NCBI RefSeq assembly: GCF_001939115.1
Contig: NZ_MQTZ01000052.1
Coordinates: forward strand, 30,542-94,541
Origin: Leptolyngbya sp. 'hensonii'
Lineage (GTDB): Bacteria; Cyanobacteriota; Cyanobacteriia; GCF-001939115
Direction of reading: 5' to 3'
Length of the DNA: 64,000 bases
The notes under the pieces were generated by a model that saw only the letters and a program-made list of their open reading frames with translations, was not told the origin of the DNA and ran no database searches. Of the stretch, positions 36,064 through 57,358 are shown one piece after another (the first letter of the stretch is position 1; each line of letters starts with the position of its first letter). A program made the translations under genes and the position numbers.

Positions 36064-37773
36064 CTAAAATAGGAAATAACGCTGGGCCATCGGCAAAACG
36101 GTTGCTGGTTCGCAGGTCAGGAGTTGCCCATTGGCTCTGACTTCGTAAGTTTCTGGGTCCACTTCCATGACAGGCAAAGCATCGTTGAGCTTCATGCTTT
36201 GCTTGCTGAGCTGGCGCGTGCCAGAAACAGCGACAGCAGGTTTCTGGAGTCGTAGTTGGGTTGGAATTTCCCGTTCCAGCGCCATCTGGGAGACGAAGGT
36301 CAGGGATGTGGCGACGATCGCCCCCCCATAGCTGGCAAACATGGGCCGCATATGCACGGGCTGGGGGGTGGGAATACTGGCGTTGGCATCCCCCATCTGG
36401 GCCCAGGCAATCATCCCACCTTTCAGGACCAGTTCTGGTTTGACCCCAAACATGGCCGGACGCCAAAGGCACAGATCCGCCAGTTTACCCTCCTCGATCG
36501 AGCCTACGTACTGGGCAATGCCATGGGTAATCGCCGGATTAATTGTGTACTTGGCGATATAGCGTTTGGCCCGCTGGTTATCGTTGCGGTCTGTATCTTC
36601 CGCCAGTGCGCCCCGCTGTACCTTCATTTTGTGGGCAGTTTGCCAGGAACGGATAATCACCTCCCCGATCCGCCCCATGGCCTGGGAGTCGGAGGAGATC
36701 ATACTGAAGGCTCCCAGATCGTGCAGGATATCTTCGGCGGCGATCGTCTCCCGGCGAATCCGCGACTCGGCAAAAGCCACATCCTCTGGAATGCTGGGGT
36801 CCAGATGGTGGCAGACCATCAGCATATCCAGGTGCTCGTCCAGGGTGTTGAGGGTGTAGGGCCGGGTAGGGTTGGTTGAGGAGGGCAGCACATTGGCTTC
36901 GCCACAGATTTTGATGATGTCTGGGGCATGGCCGCCCCCGGCCCCTTCCGTGTGATAAGTGTGGATGACCCGATCCTTAAAGGCGGCGATCGTGTCTTCC
37001 ACGAACCCAGCTTCATTCAGGGTGTCCGTATGGATGGCCACCTGCACATCATACAGATCAGCCACCGTCAGACAGGTATCGATCGCAGCAGGGGTGGTGC
37101 CCCAATCTTCATGCAGTTTCAAACCCATGACTCCTGCCTGAACCTGCTCAATCAGTCCTTCTGGGCGGCTGCTATTGCCCTTGCCCAGAAAACCCAGGTT
37201 CATGGGAAAGGCATCGGCGGCCTGCAGCATGCGATGGATATTCCAGGGGCCAGGGGTACAGGTGGTGGCATTTGTACCGGCAGCGGGACCCGTGCCCCCT
37301 CCAATCATGGTGGTAATCCCAGCGGCGATCGCCACCTCGATTTGCTGGGGACAGATGAAGTGAATGTGGGTGTCAATACCGCCTGCAGTCAGGATCATGC
37401 CTTCCCCGGCGATCGCCTCCGTCCCTGGCCCAATGATGATATTGATGTTGTCCTGAATGTAGGGGTTGCCTGCCTTGCCAATTCTGGCGATGCGACCATC
37501 CTTAATCCCGACATCGGCTTTGACAATTCCCCACCAATCCAGGATCAGGGCATTGGTGATCACGACATCTACCGCACCATTGGCATTGGGAATGGGAGAT
37601 TGCCCCATGCCGTCTCGAATCACTTTGCCGCCCCCGAATTTTACCTCCTCCCCATAGGTGGTGTAATCTTGCTCCACTTCGATGATCAGGTCGGTATCCG
37701 CCAGACGAACCCGATCACCAACGGTGGGACCAAAGGTTTCTGCGTAGGCGCGACGATCCATGCGATAGCTCAT
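36064..37773 (-). CDS. ureC: Urease subunit alpha
   Basis: 569 residues, standard length. Nickel ligands are in place: His136 and His138 (DTHIHF), carbamylated Lys219 ([10 protein letters not shown]), His248, His274 and Asp362. The flap Cys321 and catalytic His322 (MVCHHLD) are also present. It hydrolyses urea to ammonia and carbamate, giving CO2, with UreA and UreB. It is the last urease gene in this minus-strand cluster. ureE, ureF and ureG are not in the window and must be elsewhere for nickel insertion. Confidence 0.99.
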
Positions 37774-50727: not shown

Positions 50728-51246
50728 TCAAGGGGCCAAGGTGATCGGCGACAATATTGCAGCATCTTGACTGGCCGGGAGTTGCCGTCGCCATTCCTGA
50801 ATGCCCCCTTTCAGGACCACAAATTTCAAGCCCGTTGCTTGCAATAACTTGTATGCTTTAACCGATCGTGCACCAGCGGTGCAGTACAGAACCAGCGTTG
50901 GGTCCGCCCCACCTTTCTGGGCGGCTTTGGCGATCGCCTTGATCTGGATGACCCCAAAGCCCATTTCCAGGTCACTCAGAGGCACTAGTTCACTATTCCC
51001 GATGCGGTCTTCGTCATGCTCCTCCGGCGATCGCACATCCACCAGAACCACAGGCTTCAGTTTCCCCTGCTGCAGGTCGGCTACCGTCACCTGAGGTGTA
51101 CTGAGACTGGCAATGTAGGTGGGGATGTCCATCTGGTTGGAGTAAGCCGCTATTGCCAATCCGCCGGTTCCCAAAGCCGCCAACCCCACCACGACCAACC
51201 CAGGATACAGACGACGCCATACTTGACGAGACAGTTTAGGGAACAT
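50728..51246 (-). CDS. Membrane-anchored rhodanese-like protein
   Basis: 172 residues. One N-terminal membrane helix (about 14-34, YPGLVVVGLAALGTGGLAIAA), then a rhodanese domain with VVLVDVRSPEEHDEDRI and the active loop LYCTAGARSVKA, whose Cys could carry a persulfide. The domain would face the periplasm or thylakoid lumen. Its start overlaps the end of the preceding hydroxylase-like gene by 11 bp, suggesting translational coupling. Confidence 0.87.
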   Translation of the reverse strand: MFPKLSRQVWRRLYPGLVVVGLAALGTGGLAIAAYSNQMDIPTYIASLSTPQVTVADLQQGKLKPVVLVDVRSPEEHDEDRIGNSELVPLSDLEMGFGVIQIKAIAKAAQKGGADPTLVLYCTAGARSVKAYKLLQATGLKFVVLKGGIQEWRRQLPASQDAAILSPITLAP

Positions 51247-52006
51247 AGGTCATTTTTCTCCGAAACGGATGGATGAGTTGTTGCAGATAGCTGGATGGGA
51301 CAGGCTCGGCAATGCCATAGCGATCGGGCCTGTAGTGGCGCGGCAGGTAGAGGGTCCCGCCCAACCAATCCACCAGGGGAAGTTGGGCCGCAAAGTTTTT
51401 GTTGTACCGCCCAGGGTCGCTGCTGTGGTGGCAATGATGGGCTTCTGGGGTCATGATTATCCACTTGAGAACCCCACAGTCAACCTTTAAATTGGCATGG
51501 ATAAAGAAAGCGATCGCAGCCGAGATCAGCACATAGGCTGCAAAAGTTTCCTGGGAAAATCCCAACAGTAATAGAGGGACCAGTTGAAAGACTTTGGTAA
51601 AGACCTGATCCAGGGGATGAACCTTGACCGCAGCCAGCCAATCGAGTTCCTTGGCACTGTGATGCACCTGGTGAAACCGCCACAACCAGGGCACGCAATG
51701 GAGCAGGCGATGGGCAAAGTAATAGCCGATGTCTGCAACCAACATGGCTTCGAACAACTGGAGCCAAATCGGTTGGGTCGCAATGGGAACAGCGACGATC
51801 GACTTTTGTTGCAGCATCAGCACCGAGACCGCCAAGGTAATCAGCATCCCCGCCCCCCGGCCAATGCAGTAGCCCGTGAAGTAGTAGATCACATCTGTCC
51901 ACCACCCGAAACGCAGGATAGGCTGACGCCGCAGACCCAGCCACCGTTCCAGAGGGATGAAAATCAGAGCCAGGAGGCAGAATCCACCGATCGCGTGAAA
52001 GAACAT
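51236..52006 (-). CDS. Sterol desaturase / fatty acid hydroxylase superfamily protein
   Basis: 256 residues, about four membrane helices. The di-iron histidine boxes are HRLLH, HQVHH and HHCHH, in the correct order and spacing. It should use O2 to hydroxylate or desaturate a lipid or carotenoid; the substrate cannot be told from sequence. It overlaps the rhodanese gene by 11 bp. Upstream lies a region with a MITE, then the divergent ndhF gene. Confidence 0.88.
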   Translation of the reverse strand: MFFHAIGGFCLLALIFIPLERWLGLRRQPILRFGWWTDVIYYFTGYCIGRGAGMLITLAVSVLMLQQKSIVAVPIATQPIWLQLFEAMLVADIGYYFAHRLLHCVPWLWRFHQVHHSAKELDWLAAVKVHPLDQVFTKVFQLVPLLLLGFSQETFAAYVLISAAIAFFIHANLKVDCGVLKWIIMTPEAHHCHHSSDPGRYNKNFAAQLPLVDWLGGTLYLPRHYRPDRYGIAEPVPSSYLQQLIHPFRRKMTYVP

Positions 52007-52101
52007 GCTTGATACCCAATTGTCTCGCTAGAGAGTTGCCTGCGTCTGAGGGCATGGCACTATCCTTACTTAAATTCACGCTCTTCTGGGGGATTACGGA
52101 G

Positions 52102-52211
52102 GGGTGCGTGTCACCTTATTGGTAGAAAAATCAGGCATACCTGCCAAGAGCTTGAACTAGCTACGGCACGTTAAGTCTTTTATTTTTCTCTGTAGAAGGT
52201 GACACGCACCC
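52102..52211. mobile_element. 110-bp MITE with 16-bp terminal inverted repeats and 9-bp target duplication
   Basis: GGGTGCGTGTCACCTT (52102-52117) and its exact complement AAGGTGACACGCACCC (52196-52211) are the ends. They are flanked directly by ATTACGGAG at 52093-52101 and again at 52212-52220, a perfect 9-bp direct repeat. The 78-bp interior has no ORF. This is the structure of a non-autonomous element that was moved by a transposase in trans; no matching transposase is in the window. Confidence 0.88.
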
Positions 52212-52220
52212 ATTACGGAG

Positions 52221-52559
52221 AGCGGCCCTAACATCTCCTCAGGATTACCATAGAAGAAATTCAATTAATACCATTAGCCCCAGATAATCTTTTAATCATA
52301 GAGTCTAATTAACTGATTTAATTGACATAAATAATCATTGAATTCAACAAGAAATCATAAGCAAAACTTAGAAGTGATATCGCTAATTTTATTGGTTTGT
52401 AAGGCTTTTCGGAATCCATGAAGAAGCAAATTGATGTCATACTTTTTGATAATTAAGAAATGTTGAACTGTCCCTATAAAAATCAATTAAGACCAGGGCA
52501 GCTCAAAGGAACTTTTCTTTTAATTGTGAATTTCCTGAGTTTTTTAGAGGCAATAACCG
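52221..52559 (+). promoter_or_regulatory. AT-rich upstream region of ndhF
   Basis: After the MITE there are about 340 bp of AT-rich DNA with no gene. AATTAA-N5-TTAATT (52307-52323) is a perfect interrupted palindrome and includes TTA-N7-TAA, the form described for CmpR-type LysR sites, although such matches are easy to get in AT-rich DNA. TTGACA is at 52322, but no -10 is correctly spaced from it. AGAGG lies about ten bases before the ndhF ATG. Confidence 0.4.
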
Positions 52560-54389
52560 ATGGCCCAATTGTTACTACAGACCATCTGGCTCATACCTTG
52601 TTATGCCCTGCTGGGCACGGTTCTGTCCGTCCTGTGGTTTCCTTCTATGATCCGCAGGACAGGTCCCCGACCTGCCGGATATGTCAATTTGTTGATGACA
52701 TGCTTGGCCTTGCTCCATAGCGTTTTAAGCCTGTCTGCCATCTGGGGACAGCCTGCCCAGGAGTTCTTGCTTCCCTGGTTGCAGGTGGCCAATCTGGATT
52801 TAACCCTGCCTATTTTGCTTTCTCCCACCACCGTAGGGGCCTGTGTGGTAATTACGGGCATCAACCTGCTGGCGCAAGTGTATGCCGTGGGTTATATGGA
52901 GATGGATTGGGGTTGGGCCAGATTTTACTCCCTGCTGGCCCTATTTGAAGCGGGAATGTGTACGCTGGCCCTCTGTAATTCCCTCTTCTTCAGTTACATT
53001 GTGCTGGAGATCCTGACCCTGGGGACCTATCTGCTGGTAGGCTTCTGGTTCAACCAATCCCTGGTGGTTACGGGTGCGCGGGATGCATTTCTGACCAAGC
53101 GGGTCGGGGATCTGTTCCTGCTGATGGGGGTGATTGCGCTGCTCCCACTGGCTGGAACCTGGAACTTTACTGAACTGGCCGATTGGTCTCAGACGGCCCA
53201 GGTCGATCCCACCGTGATGGCCCTGGTCAGTCTGGCCTTAATTGCCGGTCCCATGGGCAAATGTGCCCAGTTTCCCCTTCACCTGTGGCTGGACGAGGCC
53301 ATGGAAGGTCCTCTACCCAGTACCATTTTGCGGAACTCGGTGGTTGTGGCCACAGGAGCCTGGGTTCTGATTAAACTGCAACCGGTGCTGGCCCTTTCGC
53401 CGATCGCCATGGTGGCCCTGATCTTCATCGGTGGCTTAACCGCCGTCGGGGCATCCTTGATTGCGATCGCCCAGATTGATATCAAGCGCACCCTCTCCTA
53501 TGCCGTCAGCGCTTACATGGGGTTGGTCTTCATTGCTGTGGGCACCCAACAGACGGAAGCGGCGTTTCTGCTGACCCTGACCCATGCACTGGCTATGTCC
53601 CTGCTGGTCATGAGCATCGGTTCCATCATCTGGAATAGCGTCACCCAGGATTTGACCCAATTGGGGGGTCTGTGGTCGCGCCGACCCATTTCAGGATTGG
53701 CCTTTCTCACAGGGCTGGCAGGTTTAGTGGCCTTTCCTCCCTTAGGCAGTTTTTGGGCCTTACTGAAACTGGCAGACGGTCTCTGGAGCACACAACCCTG
53801 GCTGGTTGGATTACTTCTGTTCGTCAATGGCATGACTGCGTTTAGCCTGACCCGGGTCTTCAGCCTTGTTTTTGGGGGGCAGGCTAAGCAGATGGCGCAA
53901 CGATCGCCCGAAATTCACTGGCCCATGGCTTTTCCCATGGTGGTGTTACTGGGCTTCACCCTGCATCTACCTCTGGTGCTACAGGCATTTGACCTTCTCC
54001 CCCACTGGGCAACGCTGAATACCGATGTGGCTCTGCTGTTGATCTGGTCTACCCTCTCTGGTATCAGCATTGGGGGAGTTGTTTATCTGGGAACCGCTGT
54101 GCCCAAGCCGGTGCAACTGCCTTGGGTAGCTCTGCAGGAGTTGCTGGCCTATGACTTCTATACAGCCAGATTCTATCGCCTGAGCATTGTGTTTGCGGTT
54201 GATCTGGTCTCTCGTCTGACCGCCTGGTTCGATCGCTACATTGTCGATGGCCTGGTCAACCTGTTTGGCCTGGTCACCCTGCTGAGTGGGCAGAGCCTGA
54301 AGTACAGCACTTCAGGCCAGGGACAGTTCTACATCCTAACTATTTTGCTGGGCATCGGCCTGGTCGCTGTCCTGGTCTTTACGTTCTGA
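52560..54389 (+). CDS. ndhF: NDH-1 CO2-uptake complex subunit NdhF (F3/F4 type)
   Basis: 609 residues with about 15 membrane helices, similar to the proton-pumping L-type subunit of complex I. LSPTTVGACVVITGINLLAQVYAVGYM, here cited as GACVVITGINLLAQ, and DAFLTKRVGDLFLLMGV and GPMGKCAQFPLHLWLDEAMEGPLPS (cited as KCAQFPLHLWLDEAMEGP) are family segments. It is followed by ndhD and a CO2-hydration gene, which marks a CO2-uptake complex (NDH-1MS or MS') rather than the respiratory one. I cannot decide between F3 and F4. It lies 86 bp before ndhD. Confidence 0.9.
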   Translation: MAQLLLQTIWLIPCYALLGTVLSVLWFPSMIRRTGPRPAGYVNLLMTCLALLHSVLSLSAIWGQPAQEFLLPWLQVANLDLTLPILLSPTTVGACVVITGINLLAQVYAVGYMEMDWGWARFYSLLALFEAGMCTLALCNSLFFSYIVLEILTLGTYLLVGFWFNQSLVVTGARDAFLTKRVGDLFLLMGVIALLPLAGTWNFTELADWSQTAQVDPTVMALVSLALIAGPMGKCAQFPLHLWLDEAMEGPLPSTILRNSVVVATGAWVLIKLQPVLALSPIAMVALIFIGGLTAVGASLIAIAQIDIKRTLSYAVSAYMGLVFIAVGTQQTEAAFLLTLTHALAMSLLVMSIGSIIWNSVTQDLTQLGGLWSRRPISGLAFLTGLAGLVAFPPLGSFWALLKLADGLWSTQPWLVGLLLFVNGMTAFSLTRVFSLVFGGQAKQMAQRSPEIHWPMAFPMVVLLGFTLHLPLVLQAFDLLPHWATLNTDVALLLIWSTLSGISIGGVVYLGTAVPKPVQLPWVALQELLAYDFYTARFYRLSIVFAVDLVSRLTAWFDRYIVDGLVNLFGLVTLLSGQSLKYSTSGQGQFYILTILLGIGLVAVLVFTF

Positions 54390-54475: not shown

Positions 54476-55984
54476 ATGCTGAGCCTCTTGATCTGGCTTC
54501 CTATTTTTGGTGCCCTCCTGGTAGCCCTCTGGCCGGGAAAGGCCACGACTGGATCGATCCGATGGGTGGCTCTGGCGATCGCCACGCTCACCCTGCTCTG
54601 GACCGGCTTCTTAATGGCCCGCTTCGACTTCGAGCTGGCTGGGTTGCAAATGCAGGAAACCCTGCCCTGGATTGATGCCCTCGGTTTGACCTATGGGCTG
54701 GGAATAGATGGTCTGTCCCTGCCCTTGTTGGCCTTAAACAGTTTTTTGATCTGGATTGTAATTTTTGGAACCAACGCGCAAATAGCCCGACCGCGTCTGT
54801 TCTACTCCCTGGTTCTGATCGTGTCCGGTGCGATCGCAGGAGCATTTCTGGCCCAGAACTTGCTGCTGTTTGTCCTCTTCTATGAGCTGGAATTGATTCC
54901 TCTCTATCTGATGATTGCCGTCTGGGGCGGGGCCAAACGGGACTATGCCGCCATGAAGTTCCTGCTCTACACCGCTGTCTCTGGGGTTCTGGTACTGGTC
55001 GGTTTCCTGGGCATTACCTGGCTGAGTGGGTCTTCCAGCTTTGACTACAATGCCGTCTCCCCCAGTGACTTACCCTTAACAGTCCAGCTGATTCTACTTA
55101 CCCTGATCCTGATTGGCTTTGGGATTAAGACTCCGCTGGTGCCCCTGCATACCTGGTTGCCCGATGCTTATGTGGAAGCATCCCCGCCTGTGGCTATTTT
55201 GCTCGGTGGCATCCTGGCGAAGTTGGGCACCTACGGGCTGGTTCGTTTCGGTCTGCAACTGTTTCCAGAATCCTGGTCGCTGGTGTCGCCGGGATTGGCC
55301 ATCATCGGTGTGTTCAGTGTCCTCTATGGTGCTCTGACAGCGATTTCCCAGCGCGATATTAAACGGATGGTCGCCTACAGCTCGATCGGTCACATGGGCT
55401 ATGTCCTGGTGGCCTGCGCCGCTGGAACCGAGTTGAGCCTGTTGGGCGCGATCGGTCAGATGGTCAGCCACGGTTTGATTCTGGCTGTTCTCTTCTACCT
55501 GGTTGGGGTGATTGAGACCAAGGTCGGAACCCGGGATCTGGATGTGCTGAATGGTCTTCTCAATCCGGTTCGAGGTTTACCGATGGTTAGTGCCCTGTTG
55601 ATTCTGGCAGGCATGGCGAGCGCTGGAATTCCTGGCTTGGTCGGATTCATTGCCGAGTTTCTGGTTTTCCAGGGCAGTTTCCCCGTCTTCCCCGTAGCAG
55701 CTCTCCTGTGCGTGCTGGCCAGCGGTTTGACCGCTGTCTATTTTGTGATTCTGCTCAATCGGACCTGCTTCGGCAAGCTCAATAATGCCACCGCCTATTA
55801 TCCCCGGGTTACCTGGCTGGAACAGGCTCCGGCCCTAATCCTGGTGGCCATCATCTGCTTCCTGGGGGTACAACCCTCCTGGCTACTGCGCTGGAGTGAA
55901 CCCACAGCCGCCGCGCTGATTTCTACCCTGCCGCCGGGCAGTACCCAGACGATCGCCCAATCCCCTTCACCTGGACAGCCCTGA
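54476..55984 (+). CDS. ndhD: NDH-1 CO2-uptake complex subunit NdhD (D3/D4 type)
   Basis: 502 residues, about 14 membrane helices. M-type complex I signatures are LGIDGLSLPLLALNSFLIW (cited as GIDGLSLPLLALNS), the Glu in LFYELELIPLYLMI, and FGIKTPLVPLHTWLPDAYVEA (cited as KTPLVPLHTWLPDAYVEA). It would form the antiporter-like distal membrane arm together with NdhF. ATG 54476; an upstream ATG at 54462 is out of frame. The cup gene starts 72 bp downstream, so the three are probably an operon. Confidence 0.92.
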   Translation: MLSLLIWLPIFGALLVALWPGKATTGSIRWVALAIATLTLLWTGFLMARFDFELAGLQMQETLPWIDALGLTYGLGIDGLSLPLLALNSFLIWIVIFGTNAQIARPRLFYSLVLIVSGAIAGAFLAQNLLLFVLFYELELIPLYLMIAVWGGAKRDYAAMKFLLYTAVSGVLVLVGFLGITWLSGSSSFDYNAVSPSDLPLTVQLILLTLILIGFGIKTPLVPLHTWLPDAYVEASPPVAILLGGILAKLGTYGLVRFGLQLFPESWSLVSPGLAIIGVFSVLYGALTAISQRDIKRMVAYSSIGHMGYVLVACAAGTELSLLGAIGQMVSHGLILAVLFYLVGVIETKVGTRDLDVLNGLLNPVRGLPMVSALLILAGMASAGIPGLVGFIAEFLVFQGSFPVFPVAALLCVLASGLTAVYFVILLNRTCFGKLNNATAYYPRVTWLEQAPALILVAIICFLGVQPSWLLRWSEPTAAALISTLPPGSTQTIAQSPSPGQP

Positions 55985-56056: not shown

Positions 56057-57358
56057 ATGACAACAGCAATTCTGAACCAGGCCACTATCCCTGCCTCGAA
56101 ACATGAATACGCTGACATCATCCATCGCCTGGAAGCAGGTGGATCGATGCTGCCAGATACCCCAGAGAATCTGATGCAGATCATTGGCATTTACAAAGCC
56201 TATGCAGTGCCCATGGATTTCTACTGGCGGGATCTGCTCTATATTGCTGAGCGTGTATTTCTCGACCCCTTCCCCTTCTTTAAGTACTTCCTGCCCCAGG
56301 AATACCTGGACCTGCATAACCACTATGCCGGAGACGATGCCGATCTGAGGATTTGGCGGGGACCTGCGACAGCCCATCCGGAATTGCTCGCCTTTATGGA
56401 AAAAGGGGAGACTTTCAAGATGCCCCGCCTCTTCCATCACCTCTGGCACGATCGCATCAATATGGAATTTGCCGAAGCTTGTATGCGGGCAATGCTCTGG
56501 CACCGCCACATGTATGCTCCTGTGAATCAGTTTGATGCCTATCTGGATAGTGACGAATACCGGGCAAATGCCGATCGGGCTATCCGGGCTTACTTCAAGT
56601 ACAACCCAGTGATGCTGGGTCTCTATCAACTGTTCCCAGAGATGTTCCTGGAGCAATGTCGGCAGATGTCCTACTATGCCAACCTGGGCCTGTTCTGGGA
56701 GGTGATGGCTCCTGTATTTTTCGAGATGTCTGACCTCTACGACGAAGGGGGATTCAAAGGCGTCCCGGATGCCATGAACTTCCTGGTGAATGGGATTTTT
56801 GCGATCGCCGGTCGTCCTATTTATCACCATGCCTATATTCGGGGTGAATGTTACGAAATCATCCCCAAATCCAAGGGCTTTACCTGGTTGTATGAGGCTG
56901 CGCTGCCTTATGTCGAGGCTGTGTTTTACCGCACCGCTCCCTTCCGGGGCACCAAATCCTACAATGCTCAAGCCAAACAGGTGCCGGATGACCAGAAAGA
57001 TTTCCACTACGGCATTCTCTATGCGGATGTCTTCCCGGTCGGCACGGCTGGGATTCCACCGACGCTGCTGATGCAGGATATGCTCCACTTCCTGCCTCCC
57101 TATCTGGTGGAGTATTACCAGCAGCATTGCCGGGGTGAGGACGATGTGTTGATTCAGTTAGGGATCAGTTTTCAGCGATCGATGTATAACGTCACCTCAG
57201 CCGTGATTCAGGCCTTGCGAACCGCCCTCCTGTATCCCCTGGATGACCCCAATCCCAGGCACCTGATGGCCAATCGTCAGTTTTTCGAGGCCCAAATGGA
57301 TCGCTTCAACCGGCCAGAAGCTCGTTTGCGGATGATTCAAAATCAGGATTACCGATAA
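56057..57358 (+). CDS. CO2 hydration protein (CupA/CupB, ChpY/ChpX family)
   Basis: 433 residues, soluble. It contains the family blocks GGSMLPDTPENLMQIIG, FYWRDLLYIAERVFLDP and FHHLWHDRINMEFAEAC, and RCYEII-like GECYEIIPKSKGFTWLYEAALPY (cited as GECYEIIPKSKGFTW). Cup proteins bind the NDH-1 arm and convert CO2 to bicarbonate in one direction using redox or proton energy. Length fits CupA somewhat better, but no CupS gene follows, so I leave A or B open. It is the third gene of the ndhF-ndhD-cup group. Confidence 0.92.
   Translation: MTTAILNQATIPASKHEYADIIHRLEAGGSMLPDTPENLMQIIGIYKAYAVPMDFYWRDLLYIAERVFLDPFPFFKYFLPQEYLDLHNHYAGDDADLRIWRGPATAHPELLAFMEKGETFKMPRLFHHLWHDRINMEFAEACMRAMLWHRHMYAPVNQFDAYLDSDEYRANADRAIRAYFKYNPVMLGLYQLFPEMFLEQCRQMSYYANLGLFWEVMAPVFFEMSDLYDEGGFKGVPDAMNFLVNGIFAIAGRPIYHHAYIRGECYEIIPKSKGFTWLYEAALPYVEAVFYRTAPFRGTKSYNAQAKQVPDDQKDFHYGILYADVFPVGTAGIPPTLLMQDMLHFLPPYLVEYYQQHCRGEDDVLIQLGISFQRSMYNVTSAVIQALRTALLYPLDDPNPRHLMANRQFFEAQMDRFNRPEARLRMIQNQDYR

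Follow-up and report, generated by a model that had tools for sequence, protein, structure and literature searches.

A window of 64,000 nucleotides from Leptolyngbya sp. 'hensonii' (the whole stretch of DNA analysed here) carries, between a fatty acid hydroxylase superfamily gene and the genes of a CO2-uptake NDH-1 complex, a short sequence bounded by inverted ends. This locus raises the questions of what kind of element the sequence is, which enzyme could have moved it, and whether it matters to the genes on either side. Read directly, the element is 110 bp long (16 + 78 + 16) and lies at 52102-52211. Its terminal inverted repeats, GGGTGCGTGTCACCTT on the left (52102-52117, + strand) and AAGGTGACACGCACCC on the right (52196-52211, - strand), are perfect over 16 bp, and an imperfect extension at 83% complementarity lengthens the arms to 30 nt (52102-52131 and 52182-52211). 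Between the arms lie an inner block at 52132-52148 (element positions 31-47), conserved by pairwise identity, and a core at 52149-52181 that is more variable in alignment and lacks coding potential by frame check. Two exactly matching copies of the 9-bp target duplication ATTACGGAG enclose the whole, one at 52093-52101 and the other at 52212-52220. Stop codons interrupt all six reading frames of the element, and it encodes neither a transposase nor any other long frame. The first-pass annotation had described 16-bp inverted ends, 9-bp duplications and a 78-bp non-coding interior, and each of these proved exact on reading.

Within the window, the element stands alone. A scan of the whole window for inverted repeats of at least 12 bp, 40-2500 bp apart, returned it as the sole case of perfect inverted repeats with exact 8- or 9-bp flanking direct repeats, and 20 mononucleotide shuffles used as a control gave 0 returns. 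The 16-mer end itself occurs at only two sites in the whole window, even at 3 mismatches, a setting at which shuffled sequence averaged 0.59 matches. We recognised no published description of the element in the literature searched, outside which most subscription journals lie, and the accessible part of a 2024 review of MITEs (PMC10969869) does not mention ISKra4.

Setting of the element between the hydroxylase gene and the CO2-uptake operon

To the left of the element lies a fatty acid hydroxylase superfamily gene (51236-52006, - strand; open reading frame with a PF04116 match of 105.6 bits). To its right, on the + strand, follow ndhF3 of the CO2-uptake NDH-1 complex (52560-54389; open reading frame with a TIGR01960 match of 994.2 bits), an ndhD-type subunit recognised by profile match (54476-55984) and the CO2 hydration protein ChpXY (CupA; 56057-57358; TIGR01964, 776.5 bits). 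The location between a 'desaturase-like' gene and ndhF, as first annotated, is thus right as to place, with the former gene renamed as a member of the fatty acid hydroxylase superfamily (PF04116). The start of ndhF3 is 339 bp past the right duplication, and the hydroxylase start codon is nearer, at 86 bp from the left duplication; the latter distance fits the 50-250 bp from genes that ISKra4 elements are stated to favour in the accessible part of a survey (PMC9208149).

A simple consensus scan of 52000-52620 found 0 sigma-70-type promoters and 0 terminators, and with 0 promoter-like sites there, the region lacks the -35 box, some 13-17 bp away from a junction, that marks the sigma-A-targeting ISKra4 group. 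A match to ATTGA-N11-ATTGA, a candidate CcmR/NdhR site, occurs at 52321-52341, and it was set aside and not used further because 0 of 15 relatives match the patterns, which were our own. In Synechocystis, a fragment 333-191 bp before ndhF3 served as a CcmR-binding region (PMC3401165, consulted in part), and if the layout here is as in Synechocystis, the element would lie just outside that region. The best explanation of the element needs no effect on ndhF3 or on the hydroxylase gene.

Two further observations concern genes of the window. The best match to the hydroxylase, from a Rokubacteriota bin, has 41% identity, and no record title among the best 80 of 211 related loci names a cyanobacterium, so that the gene may be of horizontal origin. 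At 37332-37617, Rfam reports a match to 5_ureB_sRNA (121.9 bits), a family described from Helicobacter; conserved urease coding sequence alone may explain this match.

Partner insertion sequences and the transposase family

The family of the transposase, which the first-pass annotation left blank, is given by insertion sequences that share the element's ends. The exact 16-bp end is found in 18 of 388 genomes of the class, and the table contains no match to the reversed-pattern control. In 11 of these 18 genomes, our own included, the 16-bp end extends into a conserved end of about 30 bp, (C/A)TTGRKAGAAAAAT or a variant, and in the other seven (G166, G087, G140, G524, G488, G467 and G291) the match looks like chance. 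Complete insertion sequences with the element's ends number five, namely one in G403 (1159 bp), three in G473 (1154-1155 bp) and one in G399 (1155 bp). Their ends differ from the window end by at most one mismatch in 16, with both ends of the G403 copy identical over 16, and four of the five are flanked by exact 9-bp duplications, the G399 copy having none. The likeness reaches beyond the 16-mer to 35 bp on each side of the element: its left arm agrees with the right end of a G473 insertion sequence at 33/35 (94.3%), and its right arm with the left end of the one in G399 at 32/35 (91.4%). The transposase profile test took in two of the five insertion sequences, and the proteins from G403 and G473 score 264.7 and 263.5 bits against NF033572 (ISKra4 family), above its curated cut-off of 205. 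In the four copies with frames listed (from G403, G473 and G399), the transposase is laid out in two frames in a -1 relation.

A wider motif of the same kind leads to the same family. The motif GGGNGCRTGTCACYTTTGC is present in 41 of the 388 class genomes, again with no reversed-control match in the table, and its matches include nine paired ends 1145-1222 bp apart; the three transposases tested there pass the NF033572 cut-off of 205 with 272.5, 280.1 and 290.8 bits. Elsewhere, GGGTGCRTGTCACCTT was matched in 5 of 386 genomes of the phylum, our own and 4 others, in which the match was judged chance. Loci L081-L084 lack a second end, and in L081 and L084 the motif falls inside an open frame. 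When compared with plasmids, the G403 insertion sequence matches 6 records at 60-80% identity over at most 41% of the query, all from Nostoc, Kovacikia, Microcystis or Leptolyngbya and three of them annotated as ISKra4 family transposase. The window element itself has no match among plasmids, the copy in G410 (described below) has none among plasmids or phages, and the paired-end pattern and two MITE-specific patterns have 0 matches in viral contigs.

How the element compares with known systems can be stated against the transposase superfamily to which ISKra4 belongs. In the part consulted of PMC3942029, the rule for this superfamily is given as repeats of 18-39 bp, a terminal cytosine and duplications of 8 or 9 bp, and the element fits with its 3′ end CCC, its 30-bp arms at 83% and its 9-bp duplication. 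According to the same source, a -1 frameshift connects the two reading frames that encode the transposase of the ISMich2 group (p-MULT 4). The element resembles this group in its inverted ends, which begin with GGG and run to about 30 bp, in its 9-bp duplication and in the -1 relation of its partners' two frames; unlike the group, it is 110 bp long and lacks a transposase. The element probably belongs with ISMich2, an assignment drawn from the two-frame layout of the partners, with its predicted frameshift, rather than from a tree with a named reference, and the enzyme that moved it was probably an ISMich2-type transposase. With the 13 named ISKra4-group elements that lie upstream of sigma-A promoters, according to the portion of PMC3942029 consulted, it has in common the transposase family and an intergenic site upstream of genes; in that portion, however, sigma-A specificity belongs to the ISKra4 group and not to the ISMich2 group, and the consensus scan found no promoter-like site at 52000-52620.

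Other MITEs of the same class (109-168 bp, with GGG..C[AG]TGTCAC ends) share the end consensus, the size class and, in many cases, the 8- or 9-bp duplications, but they have other cores and mostly differ in the bases past position 16. Some of them are also multi-copy, unlike the window element, as exemplified by a 149-bp MITE in the same genome.

Copies, duplications and the resident ISKra4 elements

Homologous copies of the element occur, one per genome at the thresholds used, in five other genomes: G410, G404 and G590, with decayed copies in G560 and G485. The G410 copy (110 bp, 92/111 identical to that of the window) and the G404 copy (109 bp, 86/111) have the same arms and a homologous core, and the G590 copy (110 bp) is identical at 81/111. 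A covariance model built from the window, G410 and G404 copies matches in 6 of 388 genomes, namely those three, G590, G560 (where the ends of the copy have decayed) and G510. The two G510 matches belong to another MITE, of 120 bp, and by reading, the model matches in G510 and G503 alike are other MITEs with different cores. The decayed G485 copy was found by BLAST with the G410 locus within the family of G410 and went unreported by models R1 and R2 at E 1e-4, and since the models missed it, the counts of carrier genomes and of copies per genome are lower bounds. Among the six carriers, family labels f1 and f3 occur once each and f15 and f24 twice each, four labels in all, and the neighbouring reading frames differ among the window, G410, G404 and G590 loci. 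Between the window copy and those of G410, G404 and G590, the interior is 68-76% identical in the absence of coding constraint, which suggests horizontal spread or selection; amplification within one genome fails to explain single copies with a conserved block in six genomes under four family labels. Just left of the G410 copy, at about 2038-2075 of L230, lies a dispersed repeat that recurs in several related genomes, with 10 matches in G500.

Target duplications accompany elements of this kind far beyond the window. Among 57 distinct paired-end elements with related ends in the loci compared, 26 have an exact 9-bp duplication, 13 an exact 8-bp duplication and 18 neither, and the 39 of 57 with either compare with 0 of 3192 swapped flank pairs. 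Within the MITE's own family, an exact duplication is found only at the window copy: the G590 copy has 8 of 9 bases, the G410 and G404 copies have no exact duplication, and in the G560 and G485 copies the ends themselves are lost or changed. The recent insertion claimed in the first-pass annotation is plausible, with the exact 9-bp duplication in its favour. Perfect ends by themselves say little about age, since the G410 copy has them over the full 16 bp but lacks a duplication. In 19 other relatives, all of the same class, the window insertion site gives matches in or near ndhF3 that fall short of the insertion point. An empty site emerged neither from these nor from the best 80 of 211 loci related to the hydroxylase. 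Among 35 other members of the G410 family, the G410 insertion site is matched on one side at a time: G505 covers part of its right flank and G429 part of its left. Both alignments stop before the insertion point, and none of the loci retrieved matches the two flanks together.

In its own genome (G000; 5.94 Mb, 77 contigs), the element is single-copy. MITEs are usually, though not always, multi-copy, and a single copy lowers the fit to the textbook picture, leaving the identification unaffected. A lack of further copies in the genome or in relatives had been named at the outset as grounds against a MITE; none were found in the own genome, but the five other genomes do have them. Small matches on C2, C30 and C11 are short stretches, judged to be chance or, on C30, a lone end. 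The looser end motif GGGNNCRTGTCACYTTTGC, with at most 1 mismatch, occurs 29 times in the own genome against 0 for the reversed pattern, and many of these occurrences are the ends of other short elements.

These other short elements are of more than one kind. The 149-bp MITE mentioned above, with ends GGGAGCATGTCACTTTTGC and GGGTACATGTCACCTTTGC, has at least 8 copies (L055, L060, L062, L064, L067, L070, L072 and L092), with duplications of exactly 8 or 9 bp at 6 of the 8, and the genome showed no insertion sequence that ends in this way. A second group, with ends GAGTGCATCCCA and GAGAGCATCCCA, comprises L085 4691-4856, L086 4554-4693, L088 6350-6489 and L090 4234-4373; its ends resemble those of the resident ISKra4 elements, which are its likely parent. 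At L085 4054-4220, a GGGTACATGTCAC-type end faces a GAGAGCATCCCA-type end 167 bp off, possibly forming a chimeric element, and the flanks carry no duplication. At L022, a resident ISKra4 element (about 1465-2648) abuts, by reading, a methyltransferase-like frame (1106-1504); because the frame runs into the end of the element, the gene may have been truncated by the insertion.

Origin of the element and its conserved inner block

By its sequence features, the element is a MITE of the ISKra4 family, and the original identification as a MITE was correct, borne out by ends common to full insertion sequences, an exact 9-bp duplication and homologues beside other genes. The kind is already known, and the element is a further member of it. 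Since ISKra4 ends surround a core without a transposase and an exact 9-bp duplication flanks them, an ISKra4-family transposase working in trans very likely put this MITE in place. The arms would be exchanged relative to an ISKra4-family insertion sequence, the left one coming from its right end and the right one from its left; a DDE transposase would have bound both ends and inserted the element into ATTACGGAG, with the 9-bp duplication left after gap repair. None of the five insertion sequences compared matches the core significantly, and the element is therefore not a simple internal deletion of any of these. The enzyme may have come from an element now absent from the genome, or may have acted across subfamilies, and the MITE family would have reached several bacterial families (likely cyanobacteria, to go by the genes of the window and the plasmid records matched) partly by horizontal transfer.

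A source closer to hand would be the resident ISKra4 insertion sequence of the own genome, of which the element could be a deletion derivative moved by the resident itself. The genome does hold 13 ISKra4 transposase matches, one of them above the curated cut-off, together with short elements that have the resident's kind of ends, yet the resident ends (GAGTGCATCCCAC and GAGTGCATCCCAG, of the pattern GAGTGCATCCCA[CG]TTTTG) are by hand count only 11/16 and 10/16 identical to the window end. The foreign partners do far better, with G403 ends identical over 16 and G473 and G399 ends matching over 35 bp. A search of the own assembly for an insertion sequence with GGGTGCGTGTCACCTT ends, and hence for a partner of the element, found none. 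Given its ends we reject the resident as parent, and such an origin has only a very slight probability. That the element belongs to some other family of insertion sequences is barely credible: other families also make 9-bp duplications, but the end identities of 33/35 (G473) and 32/35 (G399) are with insertion sequences, and the G403 and G473 transposases are of the ISKra4 family above the cut-off.

A different proposal is that there is no transposon at all, and that the sequence is a regulatory element under conservation, or the gene of a small RNA, whose ends are palindromic by chance. Its occurrence as one copy per genome agrees with this, as does an inner block nearly as conserved as the ends across six copies (0.784), and the + strand folds at -52.3 kcal/mol (z -8.08), although inverted ends alone would give that. 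Against it stand the exact 9-bp duplication, neighbouring reading frames that differ from locus to locus and ends common to insertion sequences; moreover, Rfam at gathering thresholds has no match at the element, and 0 of 34 predicted pairs show a both-sided change among three copies. We give this proposal a probability slighter still than that of a resident parent, and insertion of a MITE in trans by an ISKra4-family transposase is the reading that we retain.

The inner block is the mildly surprising feature of this MITE: genomes of several families, each with one copy, have a conserved core in common. With six copies aligned, two of them incomplete, mean pairwise identity is 0.80 and 0.86 for the 16-bp ends, 0.82 and 0.95 for the adjoining arm segments (17-30 and 82-94), 0.784 for the inner block (31-47), 0.554 for the centre (48-73) and 0.68 for positions 74-81, so that the 17-bp inner block has a conservation near that of the ends. 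Past 35 bp, positions 31-47 found no counterpart in the insertion sequence ends compared. On its minus strand, the block reads TTGGCA at 52142-52147, and TTG[AG]CA is present in 6/6 aligned copies; a promoter here is a guess, because no good -10 partner is seen. It is conceivable, though we consider it doubtful, that this is a horizontally spreading cyanobacterial MITE lineage, with one copy per genome, that keeps, as cargo, a 17-bp block whose TTG[AG]CA box points outward. If so, every new insertion would place half a promoter, or a site for protein binding, next to another gene, and the box here would face the fatty acid hydroxylase gene. For the family as a whole, an orphan MITE is now tied to a transposase family, and the partner insertion sequences allow a direct test of mobilisation in trans.
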